Shown: in pieces, positions 1 through 45,196 of the stretch
Position numbering within the stretch: the first letter of the stretch is position 1
Layout of the letters: every line of letters starts with the position of its first letter
Translations under genes and position numbers: made by a program
Source of the DNA: Armatimonadota bacterium
Lineage (GTDB): Bacteria; Armatimonadota; UBA5829; DTJY01
Length of the DNA: 46,413 nucleotides
NCBI GenBank assembly: GCA_025358205.1
Contig: JANYKG010000094.1
Coordinates: forward strand, 1-46,413
Direction: 5' to 3'
Notes under the pieces: model-generated
Databases searched by the model: none
What the model was told of the DNA's origin: nothing
What the model saw: the letters and a program-made list of their open reading frames with translations, nothing else

Positions 1-1866
1 GCGGGGATGGCAGTGGCTCTGTCATTGCTGGGCGGGCATCCGCAGATCGCCTTCTACTGTTTGCTTACCGTCGCTCTCTACTGGATATTCCTGGGGCTGA
101 CGGGCAAATGTGTCACTTCGCCATTCAGAAGCCTTGTACTCGCCTGCTTCACGTTCGCTTTCGGCGTGTGTCTTGCAGCGCCTCAACTACTGCCAGCCAT
201 CGAACTCGCCCAGCTTTCGCACAGAGGCGGCACGATTCCTACCGCTGAGGGGTATGCTGCCTACTCCGCGCTTGCCATGCCGTGGCAGTACCTGGTTTCG
301 CTGTTCATGCCGCACTTCTTCGGCGATCCTGCAAAAAGCGCGCAGACCAGTTTTGCAGAGTACTGCGGCTACGTCGGGGTGATTCCGCTTATACTTATCG
401 GCGCGGCGTACCGTCGGAAGTCCACAAATCCGCACGTGTGGTTCTTCTCCGGGCTGTTGGCACTGTCGCTGCTCATGGCATTGGGAACCGGTATCAACAG
501 GGTTTTCTACTTTTGGACGCCGGGCTTTGCGAACTCCGGGTCGCCCGCCCGTGTGCTGTTTTTGTTCTCATTTGCAGCTATCACGCTCGCCTCATTCGGG
601 CTGGACCATCTGCCAACCCCCCGGAAAGACTCAAGAAGCATTTCGTCGAAAGTGGGTGTCTGGCCGGCGTTGCTGCTGCTCGGCGGGTATGGCCTTGCTT
701 ATGCTATTCTTCGCAGCGTGAACAGTCAGGCCGGCGGCGCAGAGTTGCTGAGTGCGGTCGCTAGCCAAATCAGGGTTTTTGTTGTCGTACTACTACTCGG
801 ATGTGCAGTCCTGTTTGCCTTCCTGACGCGTCAGATACCCCGCGACACGACGGTAGCCATCCTCCTGGTCATTTTGTGCGCCGACCTGCTCGCGTTTGGC
901 ATCTCCTACAACCCGGTCTCTTCGCGCTCCCGGGTATACCCGAGAACTGCGACGGTGGACTTTCTTCAGCAGGAGTCCAATGGTGGGCGGATCATGCCGC
1001 TGAACGACCAGTGGAGCCTTTCCGAGTTTCCTGCCGCTGTCCTCCCGCCGAACGCCGCTACAGCCTATGGTCTGCGTGATGTGCAAGGATATGACGCTCT
1101 CTATCCGGTGCGATACAAGGCGCTACTGGACGCGGCAGCCGGACGAGATTCATGCCCTCCCGAAAACGGCAACATGGTCTTCGCGCGCAACCCGGAGTCT
1201 CCAGTGTATGACATTCTGGGCGTGAAGTGGTTTGTTTCCACTCAGCCGATGCCGGATGCCCGAAGGTTGACCGATGGCTGCTACGTCGCCGAGAACAAGA
1301 ATGCCCTGCCCAGGGCGTTTTTGGTTCACACAATCGAGTATTCAAACGACAAGACAGACGCCGTGCGCCTTACTGCTGGTGATTTTGATCCCAGGGCCGT
1401 GGCGCTGGTGACGGCTGAGGAAACCCAGAAAGTGGATTTGTGGCTGTCAACTCCATCCGGCAACACAGATTCCGCGCCCGCAGAGGATGACGTGACCATC
1501 GTCCACGACGGTCTGAATGCAGTCAGCCTTACTGTAGCCGCCAGGAAGTCAGGCGTGCTGGTGCTGGCCGATCAGTATTACCCCGGCTGGAAGTGCAGTG
1601 TGGACGGCAAAGAGGTCGAGGTTGCGCGGGTGGACTATGTGCTGCGTGGTGTGGCGCTGTCCGCAGGTCGCCACAAGGTGGACTTCATATTTGCGCCTGA
1701 TTCTCTGGATCAAGGGATGCGGCTACTGAAGGCAGCGATTATCGTCATTATCTGCATAATGATCTACTTGTTTGTCAGGTGGCTGGAAGCGCGAAGGCCT
1801 CAGCCGATTGTGGAACCGGAGCCTGAAATGTACCCTGAGGATTCGGATTTTGAAGATGGTGATTGA
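1..1866 (+). CDS. YfhO-family polytopic membrane protein (5' end outside window)
   Basis: The open frame runs in from the window edge, so the ATG at 7 is probably internal and the true N-terminus lies upstream. The first visible residues (GGHPQIAFY) match the loop and helix typical of the YfhO family, large membrane proteins with a GT-C-like architecture thought to act in cell-surface glycan or glycolipid modification. About ten hydrophobic helices fill residues 1-300, with one more near 570-590. Between them is a soluble domain ending in the family hallmark YYPGWKCSVDGK (about residue 520) and an acidic tail. The stop overlaps the next membrane-protein gene by 11 nt, so the two are probably translationally coupled. 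The family call is good; the substrate is unknown. Confidence 0.8.
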   Translation, partial: AGMAVALSLLGGHPQIAFYCLLTVALYWIFLGLTGKCVTSPFRSLVLACFTFAFGVCLAAPQLLPAIELAQLSHRGGTIPTAEGYAAYSALAMPWQYLVSLFMPHFFGDPAKSAQTSFAEYCGYVGVIPLILIGAAYRRKSTNPHVWFFSGLLALSLLMALGTGINRVFYFWTPGFANSGSPARVLFLFSFAAITLASFGLDHLPTPRKDSRSISSKVGVWPALLLLGGYGLAYAILRSVNSQAGGAELLSAVASQIRVFVVVLLLGCAVLFAFLTRQIPRDTTVAILLVILCADLLAFGISYNPVSSRSRVYPRTATVDFLQQESNGGRIMPLNDQWSLSEFPAAVLPPNAATAYGLRDVQGYDALYPVRYKALLDAAAGRDSCPPENGNMVFARNPESPVYDILGVKWFVSTQPMPDARRLTDGCYVAENKNALPRAFLVHTIEYSNDKTDAVRLTAGDFDPRAVALVTAEETQKVDLWLSTPSGNTDSAPAEDDVTIVHDGLNAVSLTVAARKSGVLVLADQYYPGWKCSVDGKEVEVARVDYVLRGVALSAGRHKVDFIFAPDSLDQGMRLLKAAIIVIICIMIYLFVRWLEARRPQPIVEPEPEMYPEDSDFEDGD

Positions 1867-3445
1867 CAATCGCGAATACCGTTTGGCATTCTGGATCGCG
1901 TTTGCGATTATGCTCCTGGCGAGTTTGCCGTACATTTTCGGTTACGCCATTGCGCCGTCGGGTTACAGATTCATCGGGTTTACGTACAACGTGGACGATG
2001 CGTGCGTCTACATGTCATGGATGCGCCAGGCCGCCGATGGGCATTTCTTCCTCAGAAATCTCTTCACTACCGAACCACAAAGCGCGCATGGTTTCAACCT
2101 GCTTTTTCTGGCGATGGGCTGGTTCGGGCGCATCACGCACATGCCGTTGGTCGGGGTCTTTCATCTCTTTCGCGTGATCTTTGGGATGGCGCTCCTGCTT
2201 TCTATCTATGCGCTCTCAGGCATCTGGTTGAAGGACGAGCGCGCAAAACGGCTGTGTCTGCTGGTAACCGGTCTGTCCGCTGGGCTTGGCTGGATTCTAC
2301 CGATGAACCAGGCGGTGAACCACTCGCCGGATACCTGGCAGCCGGAATCCATAACCTTTCTCAGTGCATATCTCAGTCCGCTGTATACTTTTCCCACTCT
2401 CCTTATGCTGTGGGCGGTCTATTGTCTGCACAAGCTGGACGAATCGCGAGAGTGGAAGTATGCGGTGCGCGCCGGGCTGCTGCTTCTGGTTCTGGCCAAT
2501 GTCCACACTTACGATCTGATAACCGTGGCTGTGCTCTGGGCGCTCTATGCCGCTGTCGCGCTTACCAAACGAAGCAGCAGACCCGCGCTGGGCGGTTTGA
2601 TCGCGGCGGGCATAGCGCTGCCACTCGCGGCTTACCAGGTCTATTTCTACTACACGGAGCCGATATTTCGGATGCGCGCTGCGGTACCCACTACGACGCC
2701 GGCGTTCTACTGGTACATCATGGGCTACGGGCTGCTTGTGCCGTTCGCTATGCTGGGAGTGTGGCGGGCGATCAAGGAGCGGAAGGATGTTATGCTGCTG
2801 GTCTGCTGGGCGCTGGCCGGGTTCATCGCGATATATCTGCCGGTGAGCTTCCAGAGAAAACTGATCATGGGGACTCACATCCCGTTGAGTATTCTGGCTG
2901 CAATCGGCCTGGCCGGTTTTGCCAGAGGACGCTTGCCGTTTCTCAGGTCAATGGCCATTGCCGCGTGCGTGCTGGTAATGATGGCAACCAACATCCGTTT
3001 CCTTGCGCGCGATATGGACAGCGCAATGAAAAACGAGTCCCAGACGGTCGCGCATGTGCCGTTCATTTCGGACGACGAATCAGCCGTGTTCGACAATCTG
3101 CACACGGACCTCGGGCCGGACGCTGTGATCCTTGCTCCACCCGGAACGGCCTACGTCATTCCTGGATACACGGGCCATACCGTATACGCGGGCCATTGGG
3201 GCGAAACCGCGGACTACGAGCAGAAACTGCTTGCATTGGTGCGCTTCTATCAGCCGGATGCGCAGGACTCCTACCGCCGGCAGTTCTTGAAGGATGCGGG
3301 GATAGACTACGTAGTGGGCTATCACAACATGGGTGGGGCGCAGACGGATGTGTATGATTTCCGCGAGAAGCCTCTGCCGTACCTTCGCAATGTATTCGAC
3401 CGCCCGGAGATCAGCGTTTACGAGGTACTGCGCGACCGGCTCTAG
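1856..3445 (+). CDS. Polytopic membrane protein, GT-C-like
   Basis: About 529 residues with roughly ten transmembrane helices and a soluble C-terminal third. I chose the ATG at 1856 because residues upstream of it (frame open from 1772) are charged and overlap the end of the YfhO-like gene, whereas from 1856 a short basic start leads straight into the first helix (LAFWIAFAIMLLASLPYIFGY). The first extracytoplasmic loop carries a paired-Asp motif (NVDDACVYMSWMRQAADG), the usual position of the acidic catalytic motif of GT-C glycosyltransferases. No glycosyltransferase family could be assigned by eye. Position and coupling to the YfhO-like gene suggest a joint role in surface glycan or lipid-linked sugar metabolism. 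Confidence 0.65.
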   Translation: MVIDNREYRLAFWIAFAIMLLASLPYIFGYAIAPSGYRFIGFTYNVDDACVYMSWMRQAADGHFFLRNLFTTEPQSAHGFNLLFLAMGWFGRITHMPLVGVFHLFRVIFGMALLLSIYALSGIWLKDERAKRLCLLVTGLSAGLGWILPMNQAVNHSPDTWQPESITFLSAYLSPLYTFPTLLMLWAVYCLHKLDESREWKYAVRAGLLLLVLANVHTYDLITVAVLWALYAAVALTKRSSRPALGGLIAAGIALPLAAYQVYFYYTEPIFRMRAAVPTTTPAFYWYIMGYGLLVPFAMLGVWRAIKERKDVMLLVCWALAGFIAIYLPVSFQRKLIMGTHIPLSILAAIGLAGFARGRLPFLRSMAIAACVLVMMATNIRFLARDMDSAMKNESQTVAHVPFISDDESAVFDNLHTDLGPDAVILAPPGTAYVIPGYTGHTVYAGHWGETADYEQKLLALVRFYQPDAQDSYRRQFLKDAGIDYVVGYHNMGGAQTDVYDFREKPLPYLRNVFDRPEISVYEVLRDRL

Positions 3446-3520
3446 CCCGCATTATTCACGAAGAACGTGAAAAATGCGCAGGAGGCCCTGGATTTATTCA
3501 TGGAGCGAATAATCCAGGCT
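3444..3520 (-). repeat. Double-hairpin element, copy 1
   Basis: Read on the minus strand this has the same layout as the copies at 4465-4538 and 45108-45181. Hairpin A (arms 3507-3518 and 3487-3499, one bulged A) carries the GGATTAT/ATAATCC-type core. A GGCCT-containing linker follows, then hairpin B (arms 3466-3478 and 3448-3460, one mismatch), ending in the shared TGAATAATGCGG motif. The element starts within the stop codon of the membrane protein gene, so it may also act as a transcript end. Confidence 0.75.
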
Positions 3521-3595
3521 AGAACGGCGAAACGGCCCGCAGCCCAAGAGCCGCAGACCGTCTCCACCTTTTGTTTTTAAGCGCTCACGCTTGTA

Positions 3596-4171
3596 CTAGA
3601 CAAGCAGAGGGCGCTGCTCCTCAGGCTTCGCAGCGTGTACAAAGGCGTCCAATTCGCTTCGGGTCAAGCTGTTCAGCCTGCCGAACTCAATTTCCACCTT
3701 GTATCTGATAGTGTCCTCGCCAACGGTGCGGCTTATGTTGCGCACGGTGCCGCGAATCGGAAGCGGTTCACGGTCCTGGGTGAGGAACAGTTCCAGGTCG
3801 CTGGTAGCGCCTGCGGTGAAATCCAGAGTACACGGAAGCGAGAGTACAAGTCCCTTATGTCCGATAGCGTCGCACCCGCAGAGCAGCTCCACAGTCTCGC
3901 CTTTGCGGGACGTGCGGACTCTTACAAGCAAGGAACGCTTAAGACGGACAAACTTCTCTCGCTGAGCGCGAATCTGCTCGCAAATCTCTATTGGTGGAAC
4001 AACCCACCCGCTCGTGGCATCTGCATACACGCCGGTCATGTACTCAAGGCCCATACCCGCGTCATACATAGTCGTCGAGCGATTACCCTTCATGGACATC
4101 GGCAGTTCGGGTGCAGCAGCAACCGACCTTACCTGCCCGTTTTTAAGTTTATGCTCGCCTGCTAGGCTCAT
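3596..4171 (-). CDS. PilZ-like domain protein
   Basis: 191 residues. An open frame continues upstream to an ATG at 4270, but that start has no Shine-Dalgarno, whereas the ATG at 4171 is preceded at 4 nt by GGGGAG, so the shorter form is preferred. The C-terminal two thirds read like a PilZ beta-barrel: a basic stretch (VRLKRSLLVRVRTSRKG), a degenerate D-x-S-x-x-G position (CDAIGHKGLVLSL) and a closing strand and helix (YKVEIEFGRLNSLTRSELDAFVHA). PilZ domains bind cyclic di-GMP through RxxxR and (D/N)xSxxG; here both are imperfect, so nucleotide binding is doubtful. It stands alone, divergent from the trp operon. Confidence 0.5.
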   Translation of the reverse strand: MSLAGEHKLKNGQVRSVAAAPELPMSMKGNRSTTMYDAGMGLEYMTGVYADATSGWVVPPIEICEQIRAQREKFVRLKRSLLVRVRTSRKGETVELLCGCDAIGHKGLVLSLPCTLDFTAGATSDLELFLTQDREPLPIRGTVRNISRTVGEDTIRYKVEIEFGRLNSLTRSELDAFVHAAKPEEQRPLLV

Positions 4172-4419
4172 TTTCTCCCCCAAAATGTAACTATCAGTCA
4201 AGCCCCGACTGGCCGCCTCAGCCGCGTACTTCGCGGTCCCTGCAGCCTCCGATAACCGGAGTAAGTACATTAAGGATTATCGCCCTGCACGAGGGTGAAG
4301 CTAAGTTGATAAAACTACCAGTTTCCTCTTGGGTCGGCGGGAGAGACGAACATAGAACGTCAAACGAGATGTGGCAACCGCTGACGAACTTGGCTGACCG
4401 CGAAACTGTCCGGGAAACA

Positions 4420-4449
4420 TTGACCTCTTCGCGCCGTTCTTGTTACAAT
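4420..4449 (+). promoter_or_regulatory. sigma70-type promoter of the trp operon
   Basis: TTGACC (4420-4425) and TACAAT (4444-4449) are separated by 18 nt, predicting initiation near 4456. That gives a leader of about 137 nt before the trpE ATG at 4593. It is one of the best promoter matches in the window. Confidence 0.75.
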
Positions 4450-4464
4450 ATATTCACATTCCGG

Positions 4465-4538
4465 CTTGGATTATGCAGGAAGTGCATAATCCAAGGCCTT
4501 CTCTGCAGCATTCAGTCTGTTTTTGAATGATGCAGACC
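4465..4538 (+). repeat. Double-hairpin element, copy 2, inside the trpE leader
   Basis: Hairpin A is a perfect 13-bp stem (4465-4477 with 4483-4495) around a GGAAG loop. The linker is GGCCTTCTCTG (4495-4505). Hairpin B pairs 4503-4514 with 4524-4535 with one mismatch, followed by GACC. The arrangement matches copies at 3444-3520 (minus) and 45108-45181, with different but still complementary bases at the stem ends. Confidence 0.8.
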
Positions 4539-4540
4539 AG

Positions 4541-4569
4541 GGAGGGACCCGCAAGGGCTCTCCTTTTTT
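4541..4569 (+). terminator. Leader terminator (attenuator) upstream of trpE
   Basis: GGAGGGACCC (4541-4550), a GCAA tetraloop and GGGCTCTCC (4555-4563) form a stem with one bulged A, followed by six T (4564-4569). It lies between the trp promoter and the trpE ATG. The 5' arm can alternatively pair with the linker at 4495-4505: eleven pairs with 4538-4549 and the same A bulged out. The two structures exclude each other, the signature of transcription attenuation. No Trp-codon-rich leader peptide or T-box UGG bulge was found. Confidence 0.7.
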
Positions 4570-4592
4570 CAGAAATGGGGAGCGTTCCAGAC

Positions 4593-6074
4593 ATGTACTA
4601 TCCGACAAAAGATGAGTTCGTACGCCGTTCTCAGTCGGGGAACCTCGTCCCGGTCTATCGCGAGATTCTTGCAGACATGGAGACACCCGTCTCCGCATAC
4701 CGCAAGATCGCGCGCGGCAAGTATTCGTTCCTCCTCGAAAGCGTGGAGGGCGGAGAGCGCCTTGCCCGGTACTCGTTCCTTGGCACCGATCCGTTCCTTG
4801 TCTTCAAAAGCAAGGGCAGGGATGTTCAGGTAGTCAAGGGTTGGCGGGCGGACAAACATATTCTGGAGGACAGCCGTGACCCGCTGGACATCCTGAAAGG
4901 TTTGCTGGCCGAGTACAAGTGGGTTGACGATCCCGATCTTCCGCGGTTCTGCGGAGGCGCGGTCGGCTACATAGGCTATGATGCGGTCAGGTTCTTCGAG
5001 AACCTGCCGGACAGCACGACCGATGATCTGAATGTACCGGACTCGTATTTCGTGTTCACGAACATTATTCTCATCTTTGATCACGTGAAGCACCGGATCA
5101 AGGTTGTCTGCACGCCGGAGGTCGGTTCCGATCCCGGCACGACTTACGACCTGGCATGTGAGAAGATTGACGAGATGGTAGAGCGTCTTCATCAGCCGCT
5201 GCCTGCTGCTGCACCAAAGACCGGCGACGGCAAGGCCGCCACGCCCGTCTCGAACATGACCAAAGAGCAGTATATGTCCATGGTGGACGCGGCGAAGGAG
5301 TACATCAAGGCCGGCGACATCATCCAGATCGTGCCGTCGCAGAGGTTGTCCGTGCCGCTGCAGGCTGATCCGTTCGATGTATACCGGGCGTTGCGGTCTG
5401 TGAACCCGTCGCCCTACATGTACTACCTGAACTACGATGACATGAAGCTGATCGGCACCTCGCCTGAGATTCTAGTGACCGAGGACAGGGGAGTCGTCAC
5501 GACCAGGCCTATCGCAGGCACCCGCCGCAGAGGGAACAACGAGGCAGAAGATCAGGCGCTTGAGAAGGAACTACTCGCCGACGAGAAGGAACTGGCCGAG
5601 CACATCATGCTCGTTGACCTGGGCCGGAACGACCTTGGACGCGTGTGCAAGTACGGCACCGTGGAGGTTGACCAGTTGATGGTCATCGAGCGCTACTCGC
5701 ACGTGATGCACATCGTCTCGAACGTTCGCGGCGAGCTTGCAGAGGGCAAGGACCAGTTCGACGTACTGCGGGCGACTTTCCCGGCAGGCACTGTCTCCGG
5801 CGCTCCGAAGATTCGGGCGATGGAGATCATAGACGAGCTGGAGCCGACGAGGCGCGGGACCTACGCCGGTGCGATTGGCTACTTCAGCTTCTCGGGCAAC
5901 ATGGACACGTGCATCACCATCCGCACCATACTGGTGAAGGATGGGGTCGCGTACATGCAGGCCGGCGGCGGTGTGGTTGCCGACTCCGTGCCCGAGAGTG
6001 AGTACCAGGAGAGCATGAACAAAGCCGGTGCGCTGCTCAAAGCGATTGAGATGGCGCAGGTGGGATTGGACTGA
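4593..6074 (+). CDS. trpE: Anthranilate synthase component I
   Basis: 493 residues, the usual length. It converts chorismate to anthranilate using ammonia passed from TrpG, the first step of tryptophan synthesis. The frame is open from 4527, but the start at 4593 (MYYPTKDEF) matches family N-termini and has a GGGGAG ribosome site at 4577-4582. The N-terminal domain has the LLES motif (47-50) that lines the tryptophan feedback site. The C-terminal chorismate-binding domain shows AGTRRRGNN, HIMLVDLGRNDLGRV and GTVSGAPKIRAME (about 400-411), and ends with QAGGGVVADS. First gene of the operon, behind a leader with an attenuator-like structure; 112 nt of repeat-like spacer separate it from trpG. 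Confidence 0.96.
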   Translation: MYYPTKDEFVRRSQSGNLVPVYREILADMETPVSAYRKIARGKYSFLLESVEGGERLARYSFLGTDPFLVFKSKGRDVQVVKGWRADKHILEDSRDPLDILKGLLAEYKWVDDPDLPRFCGGAVGYIGYDAVRFFENLPDSTTDDLNVPDSYFVFTNIILIFDHVKHRIKVVCTPEVGSDPGTTYDLACEKIDEMVERLHQPLPAAAPKTGDGKAATPVSNMTKEQYMSMVDAAKEYIKAGDIIQIVPSQRLSVPLQADPFDVYRALRSVNPSPYMYYLNYDDMKLIGTSPEILVTEDRGVVTTRPIAGTRRRGNNEAEDQALEKELLADEKELAEHIMLVDLGRNDLGRVCKYGTVEVDQLMVIERYSHVMHIVSNVRGELAEGKDQFDVLRATFPAGTVSGAPKIRAMEIIDELEPTRRGTYAGAIGYFSFSGNMDTCITIRTILVKDGVAYMQAGGGVVADSVPESEYQESMNKAGALLKAIEMAQVGLD

Positions 6075-12022: not shown

Positions 12023-12118
12023 GGGAGCGCGGGCGTCCTCGTCCGCTCCGAGAAAGGGACGCGGACGAGGACGTCCGCGCTCCCGCCCACACTCCCATAC
12101 TCCCGTACTCCCATACGT
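12023..12118. repeat. 24-bp hairpin plus tandem CTCCCATA-like words upstream of recO
   Basis: Arms 12023-12046 and 12061-12084 are complementary at 23 of 24 positions plus one wobble, around a 14-nt loop. From 12085 a tandem of CTCCCATACTCCCGTA-like words follows. The left arm core GGGAGCGCGGGCGTCCTCG recurs at 41856-41874. Confidence 0.85.
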
Positions 12119-30119: not shown

Positions 30120-30184
30120 GTTCAGCGTTCATGGCTCAGCACACCGGTTTGCTGCTCACCTGAAACCTGAAACCTGGAACCACG
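30120..30184. repeat. CTGAAACCTGGAACC-type word repeat
   Basis: The left part has GTTCAGCGTTCATGG-like words and the right part tandem CCTGAAACCTGAAACC words. It lies upstream of the MFS gene; related words occur at 33425-33512. Confidence 0.55.
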
Positions 30185-33424: not shown

Positions 33425-33512
33425 GCGGAGAGGTTTCAGTTGCCAGGTTTCTGGTGACAGGCGGACCCGAAACCTGAAACCCGACACTTGGAACCTGAAA
33501 CCCGACACCATG
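33425..33512. repeat. AACCTGAAACC-type word inverted repeat
   Basis: The left part (GGTTTCAGTTGCCAGGTTTC-like words) is roughly complementary to the right part (CCCGAAACCTGAAACCCGAC, repeated). Lies between the binding protein and permease genes and could cause partial termination. Confidence 0.65.
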
Positions 33513-36377: not shown

Positions 36378-37556
36378 ATGGGAAAGTTGGATGAACTGCG
36401 GGTCGGCGTTATCGGCTGCGGCGGACGTGGAACAGGCGCGGCTGGCGATTGCATCAAGAGCTCGCCGGGCGTGAAGATCGTCGCGATGGGCGATCTCTTC
36501 CAGGATCGAGTCGAGGGCAGTCTCGACCGGTTGTCCACAAACGACGAGTTGAAGGCCAACGTAGATGTCCCCAAGGACCGCGTTTTCTGGGGCTTCGACA
36601 ACTACAAGAAGGTGATTGACTCCGACGTTGACATGGTAATAATGGCATCGCCTCCCGGTTTCCGCCCGGAACACGTCAGGTATGCCGTCGAGAAGGGCAA
36701 GCACGTATTTATGGAGAAGCCGGTAGCTGTGGACGCGCCGGGGGTAAGGATGATTCTCGAAGCCGGGGAGCTTGCCAAGCAGAAGAACCTGGGCATCGTC
36801 ACCGGCACCATCAAGCGTCACTCGGCGAACTATATCGAGACCATCAAGCGAATTCATGACGGCGAGATCGGCAAGATTCTCGCGGCTCAGTGTTATTTCA
36901 ACACCAGCGAGCTGTGGAATCACGGACGTCAGCCGGAGTGGAGCGACATGGAATGGCAGTGCAGGAACTGGCTGTACTTCACCTGGCTCTCCGGCGACCA
37001 CATAGTTGAGCAGCATATCCACAATCTGGACGTCATCAACTGGGCGCTCCAGGCTCATCCTGTGAAGTGTGTGGCGCTCGGCGGGCGGCAGAAGCGCACT
37101 GATCCCGCCTACGGTTCTATCTTCGACCACTTCACCGTGGACTACGAATATCCCGACGGCGTGCGAGTGATGAGCATGTGCAGACAGCAGGACGGCACTA
37201 CCAGCAACGTGTCCGAACGGGTCGTCGGTACGAAGGGCTACGCGAACTGCGCAGGTTCCATCGGCTTCAAGAACAAGCAGCTATGGAAGTACGAGGGTCC
37301 GAATCCCGGGCCGTATGTCCAGGAGCACACCGACCTGATCACCAGCATTCGCGCAGGCAAACCTCTGAACGAAGCTCAGCAGATTGCTGAGAGCAGCCTG
37401 ACCGCCATCATGGCCCGAATGTCCGCCTATACCGGCCAGGAAATCACGTGGGATCAGGCCATGAACTCGAAAGAGAATCTCATGGTTGATAAGCTTGAGC
37501 TTGGTCCGCTGCCTGTAGCTCCCGTAGCAGTTCCGGGGAAGACACCGTTTGTATAG
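36378..37556 (+). CDS. Gfo/Idh/MocA-family oxidoreductase, cytoplasmic
   Basis: 392 residues. NAD(P)-binding VGVIGCGGRGTG (9-20) at the N-terminus, EKP motif at 113-115 (HVFMEKPVAVD), and C-terminal domain with GDHIVEQHIHNLDVINWAL and LGGRQKRTDPAYGSIFDHF. No signal peptide. The next gene encodes a close paralogue with a Tat signal, so the two probably act on the same sugar derivative on either side of the membrane. Members oxidise or epimerise sugars and inositols. Confidence 0.9.
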   Translation: MGKLDELRVGVIGCGGRGTGAAGDCIKSSPGVKIVAMGDLFQDRVEGSLDRLSTNDELKANVDVPKDRVFWGFDNYKKVIDSDVDMVIMASPPGFRPEHVRYAVEKGKHVFMEKPVAVDAPGVRMILEAGELAKQKNLGIVTGTIKRHSANYIETIKRIHDGEIGKILAAQCYFNTSELWNHGRQPEWSDMEWQCRNWLYFTWLSGDHIVEQHIHNLDVINWALQAHPVKCVALGGRQKRTDPAYGSIFDHFTVDYEYPDGVRVMSMCRQQDGTTSNVSERVVGTKGYANCAGSIGFKNKQLWKYEGPNPGPYVQEHTDLITSIRAGKPLNEAQQIAESSLTAIMARMSAYTGQEITWDQAMNSKENLMVDKLELGPLPVAPVAVPGKTPFV

Positions 37557-37586
37557 TCATTTGACATAATAGGAGAGGACAGATAG

Positions 37587-38876
37587 ATGAAGAAACTGGA
37601 CGAGATTGGTTTGATATCACGCAGGGATTTTATTAAGTCATCGGTTGCCTCAGCCGCACTTCTCGGAGTGGGCGCACTTTCGGTCGGCCAGGGGGCGTAT
37701 GCCGCCGGGTCGGATGAGTTCAAGGTGGGCGTTGTCGGCTGCGGCGGACGAGGTAGCGGCGCGGCGATGGACTGTATCAAGAGTTCCCCAGGCATGAAGA
37801 TTGTTGCGCTAGGCGATCTCTTTCAGGATCGCATGGACGGGCTGTACAACAACCTCACCGGCAATCCGGATCTCAAAGCTATGGTTGACCTCAGCAAGGA
37901 CAAATGCTTCACCGGCTTTGATGCGTACAAGAAGGTGATTGACAGCGGCGTGGACTTGGTGATCCTCGCCTCGCCTCCCGGCTTCCGACCGACTCACCTG
38001 AAATACGCGGTGGAGCAGGGCAAGCATGTGTTCATGGAGAAGCCTGTCGCGGTTGATGCCACCGGCGTGCGAATCGTGCTGAACTGCGCGTATGAGGCTG
38101 CCCGTAAGAATCTGGGCGTTGTTTGTGGCACCCAGCGCAGGCATCAGTTGGGTTATGTCGAGAACATGAAGCGCATACATGACGGCGCGATCGGCGAGAT
38201 CGTTTCCGCTCAGTGCTATTGGAATCAGGGCGGTCTGTGGAACCACGGACGCAAGCCGGAGTGGACGGACATGGAGTGGCAGGTTCGCAACTGGCTGTAC
38301 TTCACCTGGCTTTCCGGCGACCACATATGCGAGCAGCATGTACACAATATTGACGTTATCAACTGGGCGCTAAACGGTCACCCTATCAAGTGCGTAGGCC
38401 TGGGCGGACGGCAGGTGCGCACCGATCCGGCTTACGGCCATGTCTTCGACCACTTTGCCGTGGAGTTCGAGTATCCCAACGGCGCTCGACTGATGAGCAT
38501 GTGCCGCCAGATTGACGGCTGTGTCAGCAACGTCTCAGAGCGAGTCATCGGCACCAAGGGTGTTTCCGGCTGCGGTGGATGGATCAAGGGTGGCAAGGCT
38601 GACTGGAAATACGATGGTCCGAACCCCGGCCCGTATCAGCAGGAGCACGCCGATCTGGTCGCCAGCATCCGCGCGGGCAAGCCGCTGAACGAGGCCAAAC
38701 GCATCGCGGAGAGCTGCCTGACCGCCATCATGGGCCGCATGTCCACGTACACCGGACAGGAGGTTTCATGGGAGCAGGCTCTGAACTCCAAGGAAAACCT
38801 GATGCCCGCGAAGCTGGAGCTTGGTCCGCTGGCCGTCGCGCCGGTAGCGATCCCGGGGAAGACACCGTTGATCTAG
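37587..38876 (+). CDS. Gfo/Idh/MocA-family oxidoreductase with Tat signal
   Basis: 429 residues. Twin-arginine signal SRRDFIKSSVASAALLGVGA (11-30), then VGVVGCGGRGSG and EKP at 151-153. It is closely similar to the preceding gene along the whole mature length (GCGGRG, KCFTGFDAYKKVIDSGVD, NHGRKPEWTDMEWQVRNWLYFTWLSGDH), so the pair arose by tandem duplication and one copy differs by the exported N-terminus. Tat export implies folding with the nicotinamide cofactor in the cytoplasm. Confidence 0.9.
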   Translation: MKKLDEIGLISRRDFIKSSVASAALLGVGALSVGQGAYAAGSDEFKVGVVGCGGRGSGAAMDCIKSSPGMKIVALGDLFQDRMDGLYNNLTGNPDLKAMVDLSKDKCFTGFDAYKKVIDSGVDLVILASPPGFRPTHLKYAVEQGKHVFMEKPVAVDATGVRIVLNCAYEAARKNLGVVCGTQRRHQLGYVENMKRIHDGAIGEIVSAQCYWNQGGLWNHGRKPEWTDMEWQVRNWLYFTWLSGDHICEQHVHNIDVINWALNGHPIKCVGLGGRQVRTDPAYGHVFDHFAVEFEYPNGARLMSMCRQIDGCVSNVSERVIGTKGVSGCGGWIKGGKADWKYDGPNPGPYQQEHADLVASIRAGKPLNEAKRIAESCLTAIMGRMSTYTGQEVSWEQALNSKENLMPAKLELGPLAVAPVAIPGKTPLI

Positions 38877-38963
38877 TTGGTCGGTAGATCAATACATCAG
38901 TTAGTCAGTTAGCGAGCAAATCAGTCCGGCTGAAATACTGATTAGCTGATGAACTGACATACT
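38876..38963. repeat. CAGTTAGTCAGTTAG-type word inverted repeat
   Basis: Left words ATCAGTTAGTCAGTTAGC and right words CTGATTAGCTGATGAACTGAC are partly complementary. Lies between the Tat oxidoreductase and the isomerase-like gene. Confidence 0.6.
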
Positions 38964-45072: not shown

Positions 45073-45107
45073 TGAGTCGTGCCATATCCTGGGTATACTA
45101 GCTCTAG

Positions 45108-45181
45108 CGCGGATTATGATTGTCCTGCATAATCCGCGGCCTTCAGAGCATAATTCATGTCTTTCATGAATAATGCGGACC
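45108..45181 (+). repeat. Double-hairpin element, copy 3, ahead of the thioredoxin-reductase-like gene
   Basis: Hairpin A: 45108-45118 with 45128-45138, perfect 11 bp. GGCCTTC linker. Hairpin B: 45148-45159 with 45165-45176, one mismatch, then GGACC. A TATACT box (45094-45099) lies just upstream and the ribosome site directly downstream, so it would form nearly the whole 5' UTR. Confidence 0.8.
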
Positions 45182-45196
45182 AGTGAGGTGAAGACT

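Follow-up and report, generated by a model that had tools for sequence, protein, structure and literature searches.

The window, the whole stretch of 46,413 nucleotides that was analysed, contains three copies of a dispersed double-hairpin element, located at 3442-3522 on the minus strand and at 4461-4540 and 45104-45183 on the plus strand. All three had been located by the first-pass annotation; their true extents are a few bases longer than given there. The common order described at that time was confirmed and consists of hairpin A, a linker starting with GGCCT, hairpin B and G(G/A)CYAG. The changes reported between the copies in hairpin A (CTT/AAG, CGC/GCG and CCT/AGG) are real. The 73-bp core of copy 1 (3446-3518) lies, as read from the sequence, between a left CTAG at 3519-3522 and a right CTAG at 3442-3445. 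The outer arm of its hairpin A (3487-3518, minus strand) is the left terminal repeat, CCTGGATTATTC, and the outer arm of its hairpin B (3449-3477, minus strand) is the right terminal repeat, CCCGCATTATTC read inward. Copy 2 has a 72-bp core (4465-4536) with hairpins A and B placed by folding at 4465-4495 and 4505-4533 on the plus strand; its flanking tetranucleotides are CCGG and CCAG, a duplication that is no longer identical. In copy 3 the 72-bp core (45108-45179) is flanked by CTAG and CCAG, and folding gave hairpins at 45108-45138 (A) and 45148-45176 (B), also on the plus strand. Copies 1 to 3 score 82.0, 84.0 and 87.6 bits, respectively, with the covariance model R1, which was built from 27 copies of the genome that contains the window (G000). 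Folded as single strands and compared with shuffles, the three copies gave z values of -3.7 to -5.0 as RNA and -5.8 to -8.4 as DNA.

The gene context noted earlier for the two leader copies was upheld. Copy 2 is located in the leader of trpE, whose product (Anth_synt_I_N and Chorismate_bind domains) starts at 4593, 3' of the copy, and copy 3 ends 13 bases upstream of the start (45197) of a TrxB-like Pyr_redox_2 protein. The trpE leader (4420-4593) begins with a promoter-like site, TTGACC-18-TACAAT, at 4420-4449, followed by copy 2. Folding, but not the consensus scan, revealed a terminator-like hairpin with a T run at 4541-4569, between the copy and trpE. With this order of promoter-like site, element and terminator-like hairpin, attenuation is possible. 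Copy 1 had been described as following a stop codon. The adjacency holds, but the two are not merely adjacent: the TAG stop (3443-3445) of the open reading frame 1772-3445 belongs to the right flanking CTAG of the copy. Elsewhere in the window, a tandem duplication of about 1.3 kb was observed at 36386-38877, with related open reading frames of 392 and 429 aa and 70-79% identity of the DNA, and short repeats of the ACCTGAAACCTGGAACC type are found at 30158-30181 and 33472-33509.

The genome search with a covariance model, proposed in the first-pass annotation, yielded at least 150 copies in G000 (151 among the matches listed), and blastn with one copy found dozens more in the same genome. Further copies therefore exist, and paired stem changes were found over 93 of them, so that the description as a dispersed double-hairpin family with covarying stems was right. 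The same model detected at least 76 copies in G008, a distant relative from another family of the same class. The core of about 72 bp is non-coding, contains no transposase gene and is shorter than 500 bp, as expected of a MITE. Both ends carry short, imperfect terminal inverted repeats of 12 bp, about CCCGSATTATKC, also written as CCCGSATTATTC. Each of the two terminal repeats has an inverted copy of itself after it, and this gives rise to the two hairpins. The arms of hairpin A in G000 are of three main types, CGYGGATTATGC, CYTGGATTATKC and CYTGCATTATGC, and the linker between hairpins A and B reads GGCCTTCWGA. Conservation among the G000 copies starts sharply at the left CTAG and stops sharply at the right C(T/C)AG, with random flanks beyond; neighbouring copies in tandem have one CTAG in common. 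Almost all copies (49 of 53) lie clear of predicted genes, although coding sequence makes up 85% of the DNA; the gene calls, from a simple codon-usage script, are rough. A palindromic hairpin present in high copy number between genes is also what is expected of a REP/BIME-like family. Orientation relative to the flanking genes is mildly skewed (38 versus 21, p 0.04). A stop codon is present in the flank of 24 of 93 G000 copies; no enrichment is claimed, as CTAG sites in general end long open reading frames about equally often.

The element is flanked by a target-site duplication of 4 bp that mostly reads YTAR. Of 46 copies from G008 and G006, the latter from the same genus as G008, 31 have the same tetranucleotide on the left and on the right, compared with a mean of 8.7 and a maximum of 18 after shuffling. 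When CTAG was excluded, 21 were identical (shuffled mean 3.9, maximum 11). The matched types in these two genomes are CTAG, CTAA, TTAG, TTAA, CTGG, TATA, TGTA, TAAA and TGAA. One G008 copy (L130:10943-11022) has the structure TATA-72 bp-TATA, and the orthologous DNA of G006 contains TATA once; this is the one clean orthologous empty site that was aligned. For a second G008 copy, the orthologous gaps of G023 and G022, which could be aligned roughly, contain no counterpart. A 98-bp repeat of G008 with CTAA/TTAG ends was found both empty and carrying an insertion of the element at one or the other end, and these ends are targets of the element. The repeat itself (CTAAGCAATTTACGGTCAGTAAATTGC...ACCAACCGTGATTTACTTAG, e.g., L130:10740-10837) is present many times in G008 and also occurs in G006 and G026. 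In G000, identical flanks were found in 16 of 93 copies (shuffled mean 9.1, maximum 17), and outside CTAG in 5 versus 2.5, which is not significant by itself. The G000 copies look older, with duplications that are mostly eroded, and G008 is rich in young copies. Copies with eroded duplications also pair less well (91% Watson-Crick versus 97% in copies with identical duplications), which fits decay after insertion. On the right side of G000 copies, CCAG is frequent irrespective of the left tetranucleotide, which erosion of a matched duplication does not explain.

The dispersed double hairpin is thus very probably a MITE, a 72-bp non-coding element whose transposase would be supplied from elsewhere. 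The copies, their sharp ends, the duplication and the empty site carry this reading; the transposase would be of the DDE type and act in trans. Such an enzyme, encoded elsewhere, would cut out or copy the element and insert it at a staggered 4-bp cut, the origin of the four-base duplication; YTAR sites are preferred, CTAG most of all. As TAR is a stop codon, an insertion at Y-TAR at the end of a gene re-creates the stop; the window has an example at 3443-3445. Within the hairpins of elements that still transpose, template switching or arm exchange would generate paired changes, which would then spread as subfamilies.

The first-pass annotation had considered a REP/BIME-like family. In such a family a RAYT spreads pairs of REP units in inverted orientation, and each unit is a hairpin with a tag. 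REPs are palindromes that carry a GTAG or CGTC tag; those of the GTAG kind are associated with RAYT transposases (PMC3733652, PMC8266576). The element resembles such REPs and BIMEs in its inverted pair of hairpins, the tetranucleotide at the outer foot, the high copy number between genes and the subfamilies with paired stem changes. However, its tetranucleotide is a target duplication that varies and is present on both sides, without a fixed GTAG or CGTC tag, and the G008/G006 comparison includes an empty site. In insertion of the IS200/IS605 type the right end derives from the element and no duplication is formed, unlike here. A further resemblance to REPs is seen in solo hairpins of about 33-36 bp, which consist of the two outer arms with YTAR-like flanks and occur in three genomes: L266, L267, L268 and L032:1994-2031 in G000, L261 in G008 and L193 in G022. 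These solo hairpins, though REP-like, appear to be shortened MITEs.

The recommended look-up of a RAYT-type transposase gave four Y1-type genes in G000, whose matches to the NCBIfam REP transposase model fall short of the cut-off. None of them is bounded by ends of the element; just upstream of one of them, L032, lies a solo hairpin of the family. The genes at L031 and L032 are flanked by GGGGACAGACACAATT repeats, the one at L033 by GGGAGCGCGGGTGTCCTC repeats and the one at L034 by a long direct repeat. Together with 19 Y1 matches from relatives, these loci contain no full element, and no ends of this type were found at the PF01797 (Y1) loci, including those of G008, G006 and G022. Mobilization by a RAYT was rejected, the Y1_Tnp genes of G000 and of eight related genomes being flanked by other repeats or by none. 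A REP/BIME origin is accordingly considered highly improbable. The RAYT-like genes of L031 and L032 (G000 contigs C117 and C128) are near-identical and bounded by inverted GGGGACAGACACAATT; they are apparently mobile units of their own. In L034 (1201-2060) the RAYT-like gene lies between two long direct, not inverted, repeats (CTGCGAGGGCTTCCCGCATAT...). A GGGAGCGCGG-GTCC hairpin repeat at 12023-12084 of the window is similar to those that surround the RAYT-like gene of L033 (L033 1400-2200) and represents a separate REP-like family.

Covariation was analysed over 93 copies. Both sides of a pair had changed in 191 cells, compared with 58 in shuffles and 8-38 when the partners were slid. The first-pass annotation read such covariation as pointing to selection on structure, either in a repeat family or in a structured RNA. 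The latter could be a leader, an attenuator, a terminator or an mRNA-stability hairpin. Strong folding and strong covariation agree with an RNA, as do the two window copies in mRNA leaders, of which that of trpE is directly 5' of the terminator-like hairpin. Against this, no Rfam family matched the window at the gathering score, and the copies are scattered over unrelated genes. Their insertions are marked by duplications, one of them missing at the aligned site in G006 and another from the gaps of G023 and G022. RNA selection should favour G-U over A-C mispairs; in the 59 copies between co-directional genes, the gene-sense strand has 40 G-U and 34 A-C (p 0.56), and so gives no sign of it. A structured RNA under selection is hardly tenable, and the element may serve the host as a leader or terminator hairpin in occasional cases at most.

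The loops point to events in DNA. Hairpin A loops that are reverse complements of each other form 27 pairs in G000 and 9 in G008, compared with 1.7 and 0.24 for letter-shuffled loops; six G008/G006 copies, for example, have the loop GCTTCCC and four have GGGAAGC. The natural reading of such flipped loops would be inversion of the whole hairpin or template switching between its arms, either of which may copy a change from one arm to the other. With loops in both orientations far above chance and arm exchange or template switching available, covariation alone does not show selection on structure. The flipped loops and the lack of a G-U excess on the gene-sense strand suggest that events in the DNA, template switching or arm exchange, are the most likely source of the paired changes in the stems. 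The main rival on the source of the covariation accepts a MITE origin and holds that the stems are kept by selection for hairpin ends in transposition, since the transposase or host factors would need cruciform or hairpin ends. Substitutions per base are 0.066 in stems versus 0.205 in unpaired positions (linker included), and one-sided changes number 55 in outer versus 78 in inner arms (p 0.06), as such selection would predict. Yet loop inversion offers a mutational source, and MITEs of the relatives G022, G026 and G017 share the terminal repeats but lack terminal hairpins, so that terminal hairpins on both sides are not a general requirement. Stem selection of this kind is judged unlikely, while keeping an appreciable chance.

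Among the loci examined in these draft, fragmented assemblies, no gene-bearing element was found between ends of this type. DDE_5 (PF13546, IS701-type) is absent from G000, G008, G006 and G022. DDE_Tnp_1 (PF01609, IS5-family) has no match in G000, and its one match in G008 and two in G006 are without these ends, as are the rve (PF00665) genes; the PF13701 (IS1380-type) transposase is absent. Unpaired terminal repeats in G014, G008 and G000 were inspected as possible edges of an autonomous element and proved to be fragments, solo hairpins, interrupted MITEs or ordinary genes between two copies.

Related MITEs occur in further genomes of the class. Those of G022 and G026 are 67-74 bp long, with CCCGCATTATTC ends and YTAR-type duplications but different interiors. 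In G017, from a third family of the class, the MITEs are 194-310 bp long and have the same ends and duplications (L225-L244), again with different interiors. Many G017 contigs end inside these MITEs, which are therefore probably near-identical and recent. The search of G001-G004, members of the same family as G000, gave no copies, so that the distribution is patchy. No other carriers were found by pattern scans (two in genome_contigs, one in viral_contigs) or by blastn against plasmids and phages; records close to G000 may be missing from these collections. A literature search with the end sequence returned unrelated papers only.

A 4-bp duplication of the YTAR type is also made by the IS701 family, of which the DDE_5 transposase was missing from the four genomes named above. 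The IS5 duplication is likewise YTAR (PMC10359306); the 4-bp length and the target preference agree with the present element, but G000 has no PF01609 gene and the ends differ from those of MITEPsy1. MITEPsy1 of Pseudomonas syringae is a non-coding element of 100 nt that targets CTAG or YTAA and duplicates four bases; its 18-nt ends, GGAAGGTCTGAAAAAGCC, are thought to derive from ISPsy2 (PMC3189936). Both elements are short and non-coding, with terminal inverted repeats and a four-base duplication of the CTAG type, whereas the present one has 12-bp CCCGSATTATKC ends, each with a hairpin, in place of the longer ends and ISPsy2 parent of MITEPsy1. Correia, Chunjie, QMITE and other prokaryotic MITEs are small and intergenic, with terminal and direct repeats, stable stem-loop transcripts and degenerate copies similar to REPs (PMC10969869), features in which they agree with the present element; the present element differs from Correia, Chunjie and QMITE in its 72 bp with two independent hairpins, its ends and its target. 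The MITE family is new and its double-hairpin build unusual, but its kind is ordinary.

The CCCGSATTATKC ends and YTAR duplications in three families of one class allow a wider, rather doubtful proposal. The MITEs would form a superfamily moved by a trans-acting transposase of a new or untried kind, no longer located between such ends, much as RAYTs act on REPs, and hairpin ends whose loops flip would be part of the movement of the 72-bp form.

Mobile palindromic DNA can produce strong covariation over dispersed repeats, which can be mistaken for that of a structured RNA. Two simple tests distinguish them, namely matched flanking tetranucleotides and the ratio of G-U to A-C mispairs on the gene-sense strand. 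The element, with its high copy number and, in one genome, young insertions, also provides a system for the study of hairpin-loop inversion.
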